Positions 2,290 through 63,423 of a stretch of DNA of 64,000 nt are shown piece after piece. Numbering within the stretch: the first letter of the stretch is position 1; each line of letters starts with the position of its first letter. Origin of the DNA: Planococcus antarcticus DSM 14505 (GTDB lineage Bacteria > Bacillota > Bacilli > Bacillales_A > Planococcaceae); the NCBI RefSeq assembly GCF_001687565.2, contig NZ_CP016534.2, forward strand, positions 996,501 through 1,060,500, given 5' to 3'. The position numbers were made by a program, and so were the translations under genes. The notes under the pieces were generated by a model, which was given only the letters and a program-made list of their open reading frames with translations, was not told where the DNA came from and did not search any database.

Positions 2290-3686
2290 ATGAAGAATGT
2301 GGTGTCTTTGGAATATGGGGACATCCGAATGCGACGCAATTGACGTATTACGGATTGCATGCTTTGCAACATCGCGGTCAAGAAGGTGCTGGAATCGTTT
2401 CAACTGATGGAGAAGCCCTTCGCCCATTAAAAGGTGAAGGCATGGTCAGTGAAGTTTTTACGCCAGAAAAAATAGAAAAAATAGCAGGACATGCCGCAAT
2501 TGGCCATGTCCGCTATGCAACAGCAGGGGGCAGCGGCATTGAAAATGTCCAGCCCTTGCTCTTTAATTCAACTACCGGTAGTTTGGCTATTTCGCATAAC
2601 GGCAATTTAGTCAATGCGACACAACTAAAAGGGCATCTCGAACGTCAAGGAAGTATTTTCCAAACGACTTCTGATACAGAAGTGCTCGCTCACTTAATCA
2701 AAAGAAGTGGTTATGCGACGTTTGAGGAAAAAGCGAAAAATGCATTGTCTTTATTAAAAGGTGCTTTTGCTTGTGTGATTTTGACAGAAGAAGCGATGTA
2801 TATTGCGCTAGACCCGAACGGTTTGCGTCCATTATCTCTTGGTAAATTAGGAGATGCTTGGGTGGCGGCATCTGAAACGTGTGCGTTTGATATTGTCGGA
2901 GCGGAATTTGTTCGTTCGGTTGAACCAGGTGAATTTTTGATCATTACGAAAGATGGCATGCGTGCAGAGCGTTTTGCTTATCCAGAAGAGCGGTCGATTT
3001 GTACGATGGAATATGTCTACTTTTCTCGTCCGGATTCGGATATCGACGGCATCAACGTTCATACTGCTAGAAAGCGTCTCGGTGTTCAATTAGCAAAAGA
3101 AGTACAAATTGATGCGGACGTCGTAACAGGTGTTCCAGATTCGAGTATTTCAGCAGCCATCGGTTACTCAGAGCAAAGTGGTATTCCATACGAACTCGGC
3201 ATGATCAAAAACCGTTATGTAGGACGTACGTTTATCCAACCTTCACAAGATTTACGCGAACAAGGCGTTAAGATGAAACTATCGCCTGTCCGGCAAGTGG
3301 TCAACGGAAAACGCGTCATTATGGTAGATGATTCGATTGTTCGCGGCACAACTTCACGGCGCATCGTCACGTTATTGAAAGAAGCAGGCGCTACAGAAGT
3401 GCATGTCGTGATTAGTTCACCGCCGATCAAAAACCCTTGTTTTTATGGCATTGACATTAGCACAGCAGGCGAGCTGATCGCTGCTAACAATACAATAGAA
3501 GAAATGCGTGAAATTATCGGCGCAGATTCACTAACATTCTTGTCGGTTGACGGCATGGTTCAAAATATTGGACGCACCGATCCCGGATCGAAATGTGGTC
3601 ATTGCTTAGCTTGCTTTACAGGCGAATATCCAACCAATATTTATCCCGATACGGTGTTGCCGCACGAAAAAGAGAAAGTAAAATAA
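2265..3686 (+). CDS. purF: Amidophosphoribosyltransferase PurF
   Basis: PurF forms 5-phosphoribosylamine from PRPP and glutamine, the committed step of purine synthesis. I chose ATG 2265 (473 residues) behind AAAGGAG at 2251-2257 rather than an upstream in-frame TTG at 2247. The protein then starts with an 11-residue propeptide before Cys12, the Ntn nucleophile of CGVFG, as in the B. subtilis enzyme. The PRPP loop [13 protein letters not shown] lies near residue 352. Cysteines in [14 protein letters not shown] and KCGHCLAC match the 4Fe-4S ligands of the oxygen-sensitive Bacillus type. It overlaps purL by 25 bases. Confidence 0.96.
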
Positions 3687-37358: not shown

Positions 37359-37370
37359 GAGGTGATTGGG

Positions 37371-38282
37371 ATGAAGAAGTATTGGATTGCGACAATGGCG
37401 GGATTTATGCTGTTCAGCGGAACGGCTGCTGCTGCGGCTGAGCTTCAAATTCCAGCAGCGTACGTTGCAATTGGGGACTCGCTGGCGGCTGGACAAACAC
37501 CTGAACGCCAAATAGATGCTGGTTATGCGAATTTGATTGCTCAGGAACTGTCGCGCAATCAACCTGTGGCATCTTTTTCGAAAAGCTTGGCATTTCCGGG
37601 GTTTACCACTAATGATGTATTAGAGAGTATTCAGACGGACGAGGCGGGGGAAGTGCTTTCCTCGGCAAATCTTATTACCGTATCGGCAGGAGCGAATGAT
37701 TTGCTGCGTCTGGTGCAGAATGATCCAAAACAGGGATCTTTAACTTTTCAGCAGGTCCAGGTTGATTTTGCACTTAACAAAGCAAGGAAAAACATGGACT
37801 TGATCTTGGCTGAGCTTACTGAACAGTCTCCTGGTGCAGCTGTCTACGTGATGGGCTATTATTTTGCTTATCCACATGTTCGTGACAACCAGAAGAATGG
37901 AACGGCCAAGCAGCTTGATCGGCTCAATGAAATTCTTCAGCGCTCGGCTGAAAAGGCGGGTGCCATTTTTGTATCGGTTGACCAGTCTTTTGGCGCGAAT
38001 GCCGTGGATAAGGTTCCGAATGCAGCAGATGTTCACCCAAACGTAGCTGGTTACCAGGCAATGGCAAATGCATTTTTCCGTGAATATCAAGAAGCATGGA
38101 CTGTGGAGGATCTCGAATTGCCGCCGCCAAATCCATTTTCTTTCGAACAAATAATGGAAGCACAGGAACAAGAAGACCAGGAGAATCCGGAGGACAGCGA
38201 AGTTGAAGAAACAGCACAGCGGCCTTCTGATCACAGCCCGACCGGCTACCTGGCTTTGCAGGAATCAATCCCTCATATCTAG
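37371..38282 (+). CDS. Secreted GDSL/SGNH family esterase-lipase
   Basis: A 303-residue exported hydrolase. A signal peptide (MKKYWIATMAGFMLFSGTAA, cleavage after AAA) leads to the SGNH blocks: AIGDSLAAG (nucleophile Ser), SAGANDLL (Asn of block III) and DVHPNVAGY (catalytic Asp-x-x-His). The C-terminal 55 residues are acidic, rich in E, Q and P and probably disordered. ATG 37371 is 6 bases after GAGGTG; a GTG at 37362 overlaps that site. The TAG stop touches the first base of a repeat-A element. Confidence 0.9.
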   Translation: MKKYWIATMAGFMLFSGTAAAAAELQIPAAYVAIGDSLAAGQTPERQIDAGYANLIAQELSRNQPVASFSKSLAFPGFTTNDVLESIQTDEAGEVLSSANLITVSAGANDLLRLVQNDPKQGSLTFQQVQVDFALNKARKNMDLILAELTEQSPGAAVYVMGYYFAYPHVRDNQKNGTAKQLDRLNEILQRSAEKAGAIFVSVDQSFGANAVDKVPNAADVHPNVAGYQAMANAFFREYQEAWTVEDLELPPPNPFSFEQIMEAQEQEDQENPEDSEVEETAQRPSDHSPTGYLALQESIPHI

Positions 38283-38467
38283 AAAAGCGAAAGCGTCCGT
38301 TTAGATTCGACGGGCATAAGACGCTCCGGCGAAGCGGCATGTTTTCAGCCGCACAGCACGAAAAGTGAAGATGCCTGTTCAGCTCTTACATCCCGAGGAG
38401 CTAGGCACTGCAACCGGACACCAGGTGGCTTATGACCCTAGAATCTGGGTGCCGGAGTCTGGACGAT
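38282..38467 (+). repeat. Repeat family A, copy with a nested smaller element
   Basis: The copy begins at the esterase stop codon (TAGAAAAGCGAAAGCG). It shows GGGCATAAGACGCT, GAAGCGGCATGTTTTCAGCC with GCACAGC, then TGGCTTATGACCCTAGAA and GGAGTCTGGAC. Between GCACAGC (about 38351-38357) and GGTGGCTTATG lies about 65 extra bases (38358-38424) with their own 5' AAAAGTGAAGATGCC and 3' GGCACTGCAACCGGACA ends, which pair with each other. A 5' fragment of another copy follows at 38470-38487. Confidence 0.8.
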
Positions 38468-38522
38468 AAGAAAAGCGAAAGCGCCCGAAGAGTCGATATT
38501 GCTTTCTTGATCTAAAAAAACA

Positions 38523-38566
38523 TAAAAAAACGTTCCGGCATATTTTATGCCGGAACGTTTTTTTAC
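38523..38566. terminator. Bidirectional terminator after the esterase
   Basis: AAAAACGTTCCGGCATA pairs perfectly with TATGCCGGAACGTTTTT; A and T runs lie on the two sides. It serves the esterase and the small minus-strand gene. Confidence 0.95.
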
Positions 38567-39976: not shown

Positions 39977-40002
39977 ACAGGGGAAAGTCAAATATCTGTA
40001 TA

Positions 40003-40087
40003 CACCACAAGGGGAGCTTTTGCTGAGAGTGAACATTCGTTCTTACCCTTTGAACCTGTAAGTTAACACTTGCGCAGGGATGTGGAT
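40003..40087 (+). promoter_or_regulatory. TPP riboswitch (THI element)
   Basis: The aptamer is clear: CCACA (40005-40009) pairs with TGTGG (40081-40085) as P1, with GGGGAGC, GCTGAGAGTGAAC, the ACCCTTTGAACCTG box and AGTTAACACTTGCGCAGGGA in order. It binds thiamine pyrophosphate. A terminator hairpin follows 17 bases on, so high TPP should stop transcription before thiT. Confidence 0.97.
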
Positions 40088-40103
40088 GGAAACCGGCCCT
40101 TAC

Positions 40104-51697: not shown

Positions 51698-53014
51698 ATG
51701 ACGCAGATGAAAACTGACGTATTCATTGGCGGGGGTGGGATCGGTGGATTGACGCTGGCATTGAAATTGGTAAAGCGCGGCATCGATGTAGTCCTCGCCG
51801 AACGGATGGCTGTCAAGGCACCTACCTATAAGGGGGAGCTCCTTCAGCCAAAAAGCATGCAGGTATTCGATAGCCTCGGATTATACAAGCAGATAAGTGA
51901 TCGTTCTAACGAGATTAAAGTGTTAGATATGCTTGAACTTTCAAGCTCCCTGCAAGTAAAAGATCAAGCTTTCATGGATTATAGTGTGTTGCCAGGAAAG
52001 TATAATGCTGCTTATATGATGCATCATGAAGAGTTGAAGTCAGTCATTTTAAATGCAGCATGTGAGTTTGGAAATTTTCACTATTTAAAAGGCACTGCCT
52101 GCAAAGGATATGGAGAAAACACAGCGTTACTTCAAAAAGGTACAGAGAAATTCGAAGTAGAAGCCAAATTTTTCTTTGGAGCTGAAGGCCGTTCTTCCGT
52201 CACACGTAAAGCGATGGAAATTGAAGTAAAACAAACTACGTACAACCATCATTTTTTAACGGTCACTTTCCCGCGAGCCGAAGATTTTACTGATGGTAAA
52301 ATTATTTCTACATATAACCGCTTTTTAGGACTTTTCCCATTACCGGATAACCAAGTTCGTAGTGTATATTTAATTCCACCAGGAGATTACAAGCTATTAA
52401 AAGAAAAGCCAATTCGTCACTTTCACAAACTATATACAGATTTGGCTCCTGCGGTAGATGGATATGTCCAACAACTTACCGATTGGAAAAAAATCCAATT
52501 GATGATTCCCGTCATGTACCATGCTAATTCTTACGTGAAAGGCAACAAGGCTATTATTGGTGACGCCAGCCATGCTGTCCACCCGATGGCAGGGGAGGGC
52601 ATGAATATGGCAATTCAGGATGCCGATATTCTTGGTGAACTGACAGCAGATATATTCGAAGAAAGCAAAATGGATCAAGGTAATTTAAAATGGTATGAAA
52701 CTGTCCGCTACAAACGTGCAGAGCATGTTATTCAGCTGAGCCATTTAGCAGCACTTGCTTATTCGTTTCCATTCAAACCGGTGAGCTATATACGACAGCG
52801 GACATTTGATCGCATGGAGGAGGATCCGATTCTTCATTTTAAACAGATGCTGAATGTTTCAGGGCTTGGCATGTGGAAAGAAAATTTCCGTGATCGCTTT
52901 ATTCAAGGAGGAATTATGCCAGTCCGTATGAAAAATTTGACAGAGGATACGAAAGAAATGAAGTATTATACACCGGAAGACGATTATCCATGGAAAACGG
53001 AGGGACTCAAATGA
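51698..53014 (+). CDS. FAD-dependent monooxygenase (UbiH/PHBH-like)
   Basis: A 438-residue flavoprotein of the aromatic hydroxylase fold. The FAD Rossmann motif VFIGGGGIGGLTLALKLVKRG lies at about residues 8-28, with ER after it. FGAEGRSSVTRK and the second FAD motif IIGDASHAVHPMAGEGMNMA, then IQDADILGELT, are complete. The C-terminal part is basic and not recognised. It is followed by a methyltransferase gene with ATGA overlap, an arrangement suited to hydroxylation then methylation of a small molecule. No substrate can be named. ATG 51698 follows AAGGAG; ATG 51707 is an alternative. Confidence 0.85.
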   Translation: MTQMKTDVFIGGGGIGGLTLALKLVKRGIDVVLAERMAVKAPTYKGELLQPKSMQVFDSLGLYKQISDRSNEIKVLDMLELSSSLQVKDQAFMDYSVLPGKYNAAYMMHHEELKSVILNAACEFGNFHYLKGTACKGYGENTALLQKGTEKFEVEAKFFFGAEGRSSVTRKAMEIEVKQTTYNHHFLTVTFPRAEDFTDGKIISTYNRFLGLFPLPDNQVRSVYLIPPGDYKLLKEKPIRHFHKLYTDLAPAVDGYVQQLTDWKKIQLMIPVMYHANSYVKGNKAIIGDASHAVHPMAGEGMNMAIQDADILGELTADIFEESKMDQGNLKWYETVRYKRAEHVIQLSHLAALAYSFPFKPVSYIRQRTFDRMEEDPILHFKQMLNVSGLGMWKENFRDRFIQGGIMPVRMKNLTEDTKEMKYYTPEDDYPWKTEGLK

Positions 53015-53997
53015 TTGATGTTATGAAGATGTTTAAAGCAAGAATGTATATGAAGCGTAACGAACCATTTTTATACAGCTGGCATGCGTATGTGGGCTAT
53101 GAACTAGATTTGTTTAAAGCCTTTGAACGTCCGGTAACTAAACACGATGTAGCGGATGCACTGCAATTGGACGAAGACTTGCTGAATCAATGGGTGAGCG
53201 TGGGGGTATCAATCGGGCATTTGAAAGAATCAGGAAGAAAACGCTACAAAACGTGGAATGCTTGGAAACTACCAAAACCCAAAGGCAATAATTCCTCAGG
53301 CGTTCTGCTGAAAGAAATGATGGAATTACATATTCCAACGCTTTTGAGTTATCCCGATATGATGCGTAAACAAGAACGTTTGCATTACGATGAAGAAAAG
53401 CATGCACCAACTGTGGCGGAAACAAGTCGATTGCTAGAAGTATTGGCTTTGCCAAAAATAACAAGGCGTCTGAAAGAAACAGCAGCTGATACAGTGTTAG
53501 ATATTGGCTGTGGTGAAGGGGGTTATATTAAAAAATTAGCGGAACGTTTTCCAAATACACATTTCACTGGAATCGAAATCAGCCCTTCCGTAACAGAAGT
53601 CGCGAAAAAACTGACAAAAGAAAATCAGAATATCTCCATTGAAAACGCTGATCTTTGGCAATACAAACCTGCCGAGCCGCAGGATATGGTCATGATGAAT
53701 AACGTTATCCACTATATCGACCTCGAAAAACGCCAAGAACTATTTAATGAACTGGCTAGCTGGGTGAAAGAAAAGGGAATGTTATCCGTAATCACACCCA
53801 TTGCTGGAGGCAGTGATAGCCCACCTTTCGCTAATGTCTTTAATAGCTTTTTCTCGTCATTCGATAACTTATACCGTTTGCCTGAGCGTGAAGAATTAGC
53901 CGAGTGGGGAGAACAAGCAGGACTCGAACTACTCAGCATCCAAACCGTCATAAAAGAAGGCGGCTGGTACGTCGTGCATTATGAAAAGAAAAGCTGA
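53011..53997 (+). CDS. SAM-dependent methyltransferase, class I
   Basis: A 328-residue enzyme. The N-terminal 120 residues resemble the winged-helix dimerisation domain of O-methyltransferases (PVTKHDVADALQLDEDLLNQ). The SAM motif VLDIGCGEGGYIKKLAERFP lies near residue 160, then GIEISPSV, NADLWQY and MMNNVIHYI. ATG 53011 follows CGGAGGGA and overlaps the monooxygenase stop. The last codons (KKS-TGA) lie inside the first base pairs of a repeat-A copy. The substrate is unknown. Confidence 0.86.
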   Translation: MIDVMKMFKARMYMKRNEPFLYSWHAYVGYELDLFKAFERPVTKHDVADALQLDEDLLNQWVSVGVSIGHLKESGRKRYKTWNAWKLPKPKGNNSSGVLLKEMMELHIPTLLSYPDMMRKQERLHYDEEKHAPTVAETSRLLEVLALPKITRRLKETAADTVLDIGCGEGGYIKKLAERFPNTHFTGIEISPSVTEVAKKLTKENQNISIENADLWQYKPAEPQDMVMMNNVIHYIDLEKRQELFNELASWVKEKGMLSVITPIAGGSDSPPFANVFNSFFSSFDNLYRLPEREELAEWGEQAGLELLSIQTVIKEGGWYVVHYEKKS

Positions 53998-54108
53998 AAC
54001 GACCGCTTTGCTCCGACAGGCATAAGATGAACTTCCGAAGCGGCGAACTTTGCCGCACAGGAAGGACAGCTTATGACCCGAGGGGCAGGTCGTTGAAGCT
54101 AGACAAAG
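53989..54108 (+). repeat. Repeat family A, tandem copy 1
   Basis: A 120-bp unit beginning AAAAGCTGA, in which TGA is the stop of the methyltransferase gene. Predicted stems are P1 AACGACC (53998-54004)/GGTCGTT (54088-54094), P2 CATAAG (54021-54026)/CTTATG (54070-54075) and P3 GCGGC (54040-54044)/GCCGC (54052-54056). It ends GAAGCTAGACAAAG. No reading frame is supported. Confidence 0.85.
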
Positions 54109-54230
54109 AAAAGCTGAGGAAGCCGTTAAGGTTCGACAGGCATAAGACAGACTGGCGAAGCGGCGTGTTTCCAGCCGCACAGCCGGGATGACTTATGACC
54201 CGAGAACCTGGCTTCTGAAGCTGGACAAAG
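54109..54230 (+). repeat. Repeat family A, tandem copy 2
   Basis: A 122-bp unit directly after copy 1. P2 CATAAG (54141-54146)/CTTATG (54192-54197) and P3 GCGGC/GCCGC are kept. P1 differs in sequence but still pairs (GAAGCC 54119-54124/GGCTTC 54210-54215), a compensating change relative to copy 1. It ends GAAGCTGGACAAAG. Confidence 0.85.
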
Positions 54231-54276
54231 AAAAGCTGAAACGACCGCTTTGCTCCGACAGGCATAAGATGAACTT
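54231..54276 (+). repeat. Repeat family A, tandem copy 3, truncated
   Basis: Begins AAAAGCTGAAACGACCGCTT, almost identical to copy 1 for 46 bases through GGCATAAGATGAACTT, then breaks off before the terminator at 54292. The close identity to copy 1 suggests recent duplication followed by loss of the 3' part. Confidence 0.8.
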
Positions 54277-54291
54277 TTAATGCTACAAAAT

Positions 54292-54328
54292 CAAAATCCC
54301 CTGAAAGGTTACCCTTCAGGGGATTTTG
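54292..54328. terminator. Bidirectional terminator after the repeat array
   Basis: CAAAATCCCCTGAA (54292-54305) pairs perfectly with TTCAGGGGATTTTG (54315-54328). It serves the methyltransferase-plus-repeat transcript and the minus-strand DUF1128 gene. Confidence 0.92.
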
Positions 54329-61852: not shown

Positions 61853-61899
61853 CAAAAAAGCTGGATCAGAGAGTAAAATTCTCTGCTCCAGCTTTTTTA
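61853..61899. terminator. Bidirectional terminator after the MFS gene
   Basis: AAAAAAGCTGGATCAGAGA pairs with TCTCTGCTCCAGCTTTTTT, one mismatch, around GTAAAAT. It also closes the minus-strand transcript carrying the repeat-A copy. Confidence 0.92.
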
Positions 61900-61902
61900 T
61901 TG

Positions 61903-62017
61903 TCTAGCTCCAGCTGCCAGATTCTAGGGTCGTAAGCCACTCTAGCTGTGCGGCTGAAAAACACCGCTGCCTGAGCGTCTGACGCCCGTCGAATTTACAA
62001 GGCAACTTGCGCTTTTC
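61903..62017 (-). repeat. Repeat family A, minus-strand copy
   Basis: Read on the minus strand it starts GAAAAGCGCAAGTTGCC right after the TAA of the methyltransferase gene, shows GGGCGTCAGACGCT, GCAGCGGTGTTTTTCAGCCG with CACAGC, GTGGCTTACGACCCTAGAA and ends GGCAGCTGGAGCTAGACAA. P1 is AGTTGCC/GGCAGCT. P2 is CGT...ACG instead of CAT...ATG, so pairing is kept with different bases. Confidence 0.85.
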
Positions 62018-63382
62018 TTACTTCAATACCAATTTTGTTACTGATTCCACTTGCGCAGTTTGTGGGAACATATCAACCGGTTGAATGTATTCAATGCGGT
62101 AGATTTTGGTCAATTGCTGCAAATCTTTTGCCAGCGTGGAAGGGTTGCATGACGTGTAGACAAAGCGTTTTGGCTTTACTTTTAAAATGGTTTGCAACAG
62201 TGAATCAGTGAGCCCTGTGCGCGGTGGATCCACTGTTAGCACGTCAGGCACGAATCCTTCGTTGCTCCAAAGCTCCAGCCATTTTTCAGCTGTACCTGTG
62301 ACGTACTTCGCCGTATAGCCTTGTGCTTTGGCATTGGCTTTTGCATCGACGACACTTTCGTGTAAAACGTCCATTCCGCGAACTTCTTTGGCACTGTCCG
62401 CTAACCAAAGTCCAATCGTTCCGACGCCACAATAAGCATCGACGACTGTTTCTTTACCGGTTAATTCAGCTGCGCGTTTGATTTCATCGTATAGTTTCAC
62501 GGTTTGAGTCGGGTTGAGTTGGAAGAAGGCACGCGCTGACAGATCGAATGCCAGTTCACCCAGCTCTTCGTGAATGGTATCTTTGCCAAACAATGTGACA
62601 GTTTCGTCCCCGAAAACCAAAGAAGTCTTTTCTTTATTAATGTTTTGGACGATCGATACTAAATTGGTATCAATCTTTTTTAGACGTTCCATTAATAATT
62701 CTTTTTGTGGAATCTTCGAACGTGTCGTCACCAGCACCAATTGGATTTCACCAGTTTTTACGCCGGTGCGGACAACGATGGTGCGGATAATGCCTTTCAT
62801 CGTCTTGCCATCGTATATCGGCATTTTCAATTCTTCCAAAATTCGTTTGACTGCGTTCGTAATTACCGTTGTATCAGGGTGCTGAACGATGCATTCATCA
62901 ATATCTAAAAGTTGATGAGAACCTTCTGCGAACAATCCAGCGATAACTTTCGAGCCTTTCAGGCGCGTCTGGAATTGGCTTTTGTTACGGTAACGCCACG
63001 GATCTTCCATGCCGATGGTTTTCTCAACACGAACTTTCGTGCCTTTCAAGTAGCGTTCCAATGCCTGCAAGACAAGATCTCTCTTTTCAACTAGCTGCTG
63101 GTTATAAGTCATATGTTGCAATTGACAGCCGCCACATGCTTCATAAATTGGGCAAGGCGGTGTCTGGCGGTGCGTAGAAGCGGTATGGATATTGACAATG
63201 CGTGCTTGTGCAAAATTACGCTTGACCAGAGTTACTTGCGCAGTAATTTCTTCACCTGGAAGAGCTCCCGGTACAAATACCACATTGCGCTTAAAATAGC
63301 CGATGCCTTCGCCGTTAATGCCAAGCCGTTTAATGGTCATCGGCAATTTCTGGCCTTCTTCAATACTAGGTTTCTCGTTCAT
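62018..63382 (-). CDS. TRAM-domain RNA (uracil-C5-)-methyltransferase, second copy (YfjO-like)
   Basis: A 454-residue RumA/TrmA-family SAM enzyme, paralogue of the gene at 27152-28513. It has a TRAM domain ([19 protein letters not shown]), Fe-S ligands in [14 protein letters not shown] and DECIVQH, the SAM motif [21 protein letters not shown] and the catalytic Cys in [12 protein letters not shown]. It resembles YfjO of B. subtilis, whose substrate is less certain. ATG 63382 lies 9 bases after AAGGAT on the minus strand; a GTG at 63391 is possible. A repeat-A copy begins at its stop codon. Confidence 0.88.
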
Positions 63383-63423
63383 GGAACTCACATCCTTCAG
63401 TTAATCATCTCCTCATTATAGTC

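Follow-up and report, generated by a model that had tools for sequence, protein, structure and literature searches.

An oriented, hairpin-forming repeat at gene ends in Planococcus antarcticus, probably a MITE-like mobile element

Here we describe a family of short repeats in the genome of Planococcus antarcticus DSM 14505 that is probably a non-autonomous, MITE-like mobile element inserting in one orientation at gene ends. This reading is favoured because orthologous sites lacking the repeat exist in relatives, because a short piece of the left flank is duplicated beyond the unit, and because unrelated copies are stacked at single sites. An earlier note on a 64,000-nucleotide stretch of this genome (hereafter, the window) had proposed that such repeats are either an mRNA-tail RNA under selection or mobile DNA targeting 3' ends; the second proposal gained support from these three features, whereas an RNA role is supported only indirectly, by an excess of G-U pairs.

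The repeat unit is approximately 120 nt long and consists of a single long imperfect hairpin, with the consensus AAGAAAAGCGSAAGCGCCC-GTGT-AGATTC-GACGGGCATAAGAC-...-GCGGC-loop-GCCGC-...-GGCTTATGACCC-TA-GAATCT-GGGCGCTGGAGC(Y)TRGACA. The hairpin is flanked by fixed unit ends: the leader AAGAAAAGCGSAAG on the 5' side and the tail GGAGC(Y)TRGACA on the 3' side. With 44 copies as its basis, a covariance model matched at least 142 copies in the 3.8-Mb genome (E<=1e-3), a number that is a floor because 150 of the 1038 first-look candidates were scored. These copies group into 79 clusters, of which 42 hold one unit and the other 37 are arrays with between 2 and 8. Like a MITE, the repeat is short, high in copy number, and devoid of a transposase gene of its own. 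Chance similarity is ruled out by the 142 covariance-model copies together with covariation beyond that of shuffled alignments. An already described Rfam family, which the earlier note had named as an outcome that would count against it, was rejected, since no family reached its gathering score on the repeat unit in the window or, at relaxed E value, in four other scanned stretches (L031, L045, L055, and L124); in L045, an SSRC10 hit below threshold (28 bits; gathering score 56) reaches the final, cut-off copy. Elsewhere in the window, a TPP riboswitch lies at 40000-40097 on the plus strand (RF00059, 60.3 bits). No description of the family was found in the searched open-access literature, including a search with six literal sequence strings and with most subscription journals outside its coverage, or in the available portions of four papers (PMC3446304, PMC2267715, PMC2864571, and PMC3049150).

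Three loci in the window had been linked as carriers of one repeat, and rechecking of the coordinates bore this out (Table 1), as it did the observations that the 5' end of the unit lies at the stop codon (TAG, TGA, or TAA) at all three, that the copies are in the sense direction, and that each array sits between the stop and a terminator-like hairpin. At the first locus (38282-38487), the final G of the stop TAG doubles as the first G of the unit, and at the methyltransferase locus the stop is supplied by the unit itself (GAAAAGC-TGA), likewise in several relatives. The unit beside the TRAM-type methyltransferase gene is followed by ATAA and then by the terminator. Absent from the earlier note was a second, shortened copy that splits the unit at 38282. 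Shortened or full copies of one subtype (GAAAAGTGAAAGTGCC..) sit inside outer copies, always at their CCGCACAG position and in their orientation, both here and in L127, L156, and the clusters at 2393211, 2985748, and 3318709 of the same genome.

Table 1. Repeat units and neighbouring hairpins at three loci of the window (positions in the window).
Feature	Position	Strand	Remark
Outer unit, 5' half	38282..38357	+	begins in stop TAG (38280-38282) of ORF 37362-38282
Shortened copy (GAAAAGTG...CCGGACA)	38360..38420	+	nested in outer unit at CCGCACAG position
Outer unit, 3' half	38421..38464	+	
Further copy, cut off (5' leader)	38470..38487	+	
Terminator-like hairpin 3' of the 38282 array	38524..38564	+	read directly
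Full unit 1 (GAAAAGC...TAGACA)	53988..54105	+	carries TGA 53995-53997, the stop of methyltransferase ORF 52990-53997
Full unit 2	54108..54227	+	of another subtype; 75% identity with unit 1
Third unit, truncated to 47 nt	54230..54276	+	identical to the start of unit 1, not unit 2
Terminator-like hairpin 3' of the methyltransferase array	54293..54327	+	read directly
Single full unit	61901..62017	-	directly 3' of TAA (62018-62020) of TRAM-type methyltransferase ORF 62018-63391
Terminator-like hairpin 3' of the single unit	61854..61898	-	read directly

The claim that copies lie in the sense direction exactly at stop codons, which held in the window, did not hold genome-wide. With ORFs called mechanically (ATG, GTG, or TTG starts, greedy by length), 41 of the 79 clusters have their 5' end between -3 and +6 nt from the stop of a same-direction ORF, a few unit starts being off by a few nucleotides as the first AAAAG-like match was taken. 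Within this set, the concentration is sharp: 34 of 79 clusters fall at 0 to +5 from the sense stop and none at +6 to +70. Judging from 400 kb of a congener with 408 ORFs, 1.6% of copies would fall 0-5 nt from a sense stop if intergenic insertion were random, and 6.8% if it required a stop-like triplet with A-rich sequence behind it; against the latter figure, the observed 34 of 79 gives a binomial p=3e-19. Random placement, another outcome that had been named in advance as counting against the proposal, was thus contradicted. Stop placement is a strong preference and not a rule, because about half of the clusters are elsewhere, including one behind a tRNA gene. In 27 of the 38 clusters away from a sense stop, the upstream ORF is on the opposite strand. 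Two further samples served as replicates. Among 8-kb loci of the named genome collection, 48 of 74 arrays start at a sense stop; this sample (all but one Planococcus or Planomicrobium, with several loci orthologous to sites of the present genome) excludes arrays near locus ends or scoring below 60, as well as one of 75 that has no full 5' end. The second sample comes from five other families of Bacilli and has a sense stop no more than 2 nt away in 9 of 21 clusters; its loci were picked non-randomly via matches to the covariance model or to variant B, whose interior differs, the clusters were set by hand, and antisense shadows and one match cut by a locus end were dropped. In the genome under study at 893619 (L098), and also in L209, L235, and L241, arrays start no more than about 10 nt from the 3' end of a tRNA-Sec gene on the same strand, and tRNA gene ends may be another target.

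Stop anchoring could also come from selection alone. According to this explanation, which we regard as possible but rather unlikely, units would insert anywhere in A/T-rich DNA and survive mainly between stop and terminator, where a sense hairpin is harmless and the 5' end of the unit can keep the stop. The 38 clusters away from sense stops, one of them behind a tRNA gene, fit such a process and at the same time tell against the MITE-like reading, as do the imperfect inverted ends of the unit. Selection alone would also agree with the position of A-rich sequence in a relative's genome (183 ORFs there have an A-rich stretch within 34 nt of the stop, and for 75 of them the first one is no more than 5 nt away) and with the terminator-like hairpins found no more than 180 nt 3' of 31 of the 41 stop-anchored arrays vs. 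50 of 300 random windows. Against it stand the lack of any of the 79 arrays at +6 to +70 nt from a sense stop and the re-insertion of independent subtypes at one site in one orientation. Moreover, no array has its last full unit within 10 nt of the stop of a convergent ORF (minimum 15 nt, with one convergent ORF call overlapping an array), which counts against selection alone, since selection on position should permit both orientations. A stronger form of the insertion proposal, which we put forward tentatively and with more doubt than confidence, is that the insertion machinery itself picks gene 3' ends in one orientation, recognising the stop along with the terminator's A-rich foot and, more rarely, a tRNA gene end; the 5' end of the element could then rebuild the stop, the interior would be exchangeable cargo between fixed ends, and an element widespread in Bacilli would install removable, stackable hairpins in transcript tails throughout the genome.

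The stems had been said to keep pairing while their bases change, and this was borne out across the 44 copies. RNAalifold predicted a structure of 36 pairs, 25 of which show at least one compensatory change, with 97.3% of cells paired. Two-sided compensatory cells numbered 202, as opposed to 62 in shuffled alignments, and the covariation score was 0.427, compared with 0.218 after shuffling and at most 0.092 when partners were slid. None of 500 shuffles matched the observed value on any of five covariation measures, and sliding the partners abolished the signal, so that covariation exceeds both controls, as expected of a structured RNA, and the lack of covariation that had been named as a further adverse outcome was not what we found. 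The outer helices pair and the first 7 and last 7 alignment columns are unpaired, which bears on the inverted ends of MITEs, imperfect here.

The pairing departs from Watson-Crick in a strand-specific manner. On the sense strand, G-U pairs outnumber A-C mismatches by 102 to 14, a raw excess that arises in part because the structure was predicted on that strand; for the 30 pairs predicted from both strands, the counts are 48 vs. 13 (17 pairs vs. 4, sign test p=0.007), and for all pairs predicted from the antisense strand 48 vs. 31, a weak excess. In 41 of the 44 copies, the sense strand folds more stably than the antisense strand. Mutation bias as the source of the G-U excess is unsupported: among cells of unpaired columns, C>T changes number 5 of 132 and G>A changes 44 of 439. 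On the strength of the G-U excess, the stability of the sense fold, and the lack of a matching mutation bias, selection seems to act on how the sense single strand folds, be it RNA or single-stranded DNA, and an RNA role of the repeat is plausible but unproven. These observations, together with the strong covariation and the position of units between stop and terminator, are what one would expect if the repeat were a selected RNA of mRNA 3' ends (e.g., a transcript-stabilising or protein-binding hairpin) that was spread and kept for the benefit of the host. We nevertheless consider this explanation unlikely in view of the patchy occupancy of sites between relatives and the exchange of interiors between families, both described below.

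Occupancy was judged by reading the first 290-420 nt after each of three genes in 30 congeners. At the TRAM methyltransferase site, units of either interior are present in 4 of 30 (the present genome among them) and absent from 26; at deoD, 4 of 30 have units or a solo leader, and the remaining 26 have neither. The methyltransferase site is occupied by units in 19 of 30 and by a leader or cut-off unit in 3, leaving 8 without a copy at that stop; among these eight, L173, L176, and L178 hold opposite-strand repeat pieces further on, where in L176 and L178 a remnant leader adjoins the stop of a convergent ORF and is sense to that ORF, the piece in L173 lying further off. When 12 sites of the present genome were mapped in the relative G014, one was filled, one held a cut-off unit, and 10 had no copy, although the one opposite position 1344368 could be a deletion remnant. 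Insertion is thus polymorphic between relatives, as for a MITE, and copy number across congeners ranges from 8 to at least 90. The empty TRAM, deoD, and G014 sites and this range of copy number are points against a hairpin kept for the benefit of the host.

MITEs carry inverted ends and a short target duplication. A spacer to the right of the first unit could be defined in 61 of the 79 clusters; in these, the suffix of the left flank matches the right spacer over a mean of 1.79 nt, compared with 0.86 nt in shuffles, none of 5000 of which reached the observed value. The left flank is repeated to the right of the unit by 3-6 nt at 21 of 61 sites, at many of which the duplication includes the stop codon, and by no base at 24 of 61; target-site duplication is therefore a property of the set and not of each site. 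This varying length and the 24 sites that share no base speak against the MITE-like reading, since a variable, often undetectable duplication is unusual for a DDE-type transposon. The clearest case is position 1268474, where the empty site in G014 reads GGACAGTAAGAAAG and the filled site has GTAA (the stop plus one base) on both sides, although the flank on the left happens to look like the end of the unit as well. The deoD site has TAGAAA on its left, and its spacers in three species read GAAA (the present genome), AGAAA twice (G017), and AGAGA and AGAAA in G020, whose array includes a variant B unit with the same type of spacer; that is, stacked subtypes are each followed by the site's own short repeat.

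Arrays appear to have grown in more than one way. In 19 of 37 arrays all copies are at least 95% identical, indicating local amplification, and 14 of 37 hold copies less than 85% identical, with 25 of 26 such copies closest to a copy at another locus. No opposite-strand copy was found within 400 bp of the arrays in this genome, and this, together with the divergent copies, indicates that single sites are re-used in one orientation. A cut-off further copy ends 45 of the 79 arrays, and in 31 of these 45 the piece measures 10-19 nt (a raw count, without shuffled control), approximately the length of the unpaired leader before the hairpin. We read these end copies as the result of hairpin loss, an attachment site being the other possibility. 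In the latter case, site-specific recombination would bring circular units into an attachment sequence X that resembles the leader, yielding X-Y-X as well as solo X sites; the extra 5' end pieces, the solo-leader sites in L154, L160, and L306, and the close resemblance of the empty G014 site opposite 1268474 to a unit junction would all fit. Other empty targets are similar over a few nucleotides only, deletion of the hairpin explains the leader-length pieces equally well, and no recombinase is linked to the repeat, so we consider integration of circular units quite improbable.

Beyond P. antarcticus, the named genome collection has 71 stretches with an exact 18-base piece of the repeat, 70 from Planococcus or Planomicrobium and one from a Christensenellaceae MAG; in the last (L262), the exact match to the repeat lies in an 8.5-kb contig that is possibly mis-binned. 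The covariance model matches 101 of 151 genomes of the family Planococcaceae in 14 of 19 genera (24 candidates scored per genome) and 61 of 398 genomes of the class in 33 of 145 genera, 31 of them outside the family (9 candidates per genome). With variant B as the query (2 candidates scored per genome), eight genomes of other families (G218, G246, G278, G337, G354, G441, G472, and G480) matched at the ends only (approximately positions 1-47 or 91-124, 83-94% identity), and whole-unit matches at 70-78% were found in G258, G401, G298, and G202. Fixed ends around exchangeable middles suggest, from sequence comparison, that the unit ends are what the machinery recognises; such differing interiors also run counter to a hairpin selected for a function in the mRNA. 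Plasmid-borne spread was rejected, as neither variant matched any of 72,556 plasmid records at E<=1e-5.

If the repeat is indeed a MITE-like element, an enzyme supplied in trans would recognise the unit ends and insert the unit in a fixed orientation into a T/A-rich target, for example a stop codon with a terminator's A-rich foot behind it. Insertions that break terminators, promoters, or reading frames would be cleared by purifying selection, and the two processes together would give rise to the stop-codon pattern. Lying between stop and terminator, the unit would then be transcribed into a hairpin of the 3' UTR, arrays would grow through re-insertion and local duplication and shrink through loss of the hairpin with the leader remaining, and folding of the sense strand may be selected for single-strand mobility or for the behaviour of the mRNA 3' end. 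No longer, transposase-carrying copy (a 5'-only piece followed by a 3'-only piece 0.4-4 kb on, same strand) was found in the 2.0 Mb of partly overlapping DNA that was searched, which counts against the MITE-like reading.

Mobilisation by a RAYT/IS200-type Y1 transposase, as for REP elements, was considered in view of the hairpin shape of the repeat and of three PF01797 proteins in this genome, and is very improbable. No repeat copy lies within 1.5 kb of the three genes, congeners without a Y1 match (e.g., G017) hold at least 90 copies, and the co-occurrence table for 151 genomes (66 with both, 35 with the element only, 31 with Y1 only, and 19 with neither; Fisher p=0.72) largely refutes the idea. 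The three RAYT-like genes are in L075, L076, and L077, two of them adjoining ORFs that, judging from their translations, are presumably of the Mg-chelatase/comM type. REP/BIME sequences with RAYT are repeated extragenic hairpins, often downstream of genes, with units of 20-40 nt; the present repeat differs in its 120-nt unit and in showing neither linkage to nor co-occurrence with the Y1 transposase.

Among the systems compared, the nearest is the pneumococcal BOX element, which is present at 125 copies in the genome and overlaps 58 CDSs, in 36 of which it lies at the extreme 3' end and encodes the stop (PMC3049150). Both are short, non-coding, interspersed, MITE-like repeats that are modular and vary in tandem copy number, but BOX has the structure boxA-(boxB)n-boxC, in which only the middle is repeated, whereas here the whole unit repeats, is oriented at stops, and has a short left-flank duplication (compared by description; PMC3049150). 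Bacterial MITEs such as RUP are likewise short, non-coding, high in copy number, and intergenic (PMC3049150). In contrast to RUP-type MITEs, the repeat has no known partner insertion sequence and shows varying duplication, strong stop anchoring, and re-use of sites. The bcr1-bcr18 repeats of the Bacillus cereus group are also intergenic repeats in Bacilli, a likeness by description, with their sequences outside the comparison; the study of these repeats places 84 of 165 and 62 of 155 copies (40-51%) within mRNA in two strains, some in 3' UTRs, and correlates bcr3 with longer mRNA half-life (PMC3446304).

If insertion is directed to gene ends, the repeat would represent a parasite able to colonise genes while leaving them intact, and would offer a natural means of putting structured RNA into 3' UTRs. 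If selection alone places it, filled genes and their empty orthologues would provide many gene-by-gene natural experiments on the effect that a strong hairpin between stop and terminator has on the mRNA. Because the element supplies the stop at the methyltransferase locus, the repeat may also account for odd C-terminal ends in annotated genomes of these bacteria.

One array of the repeat also contains a known structured RNA, Bacillaceae-1 (RF01690), at 3134-3200 (+) of L124 (61.7 bits). This 67-nt motif is an insert with no match to the repeat unit, and a sequence that by eye is similar to it (AGCTAACC..GCGAC) occurs in arrays of L164, L165, and L170, which suggests that the RF01690 motif is itself mobile.
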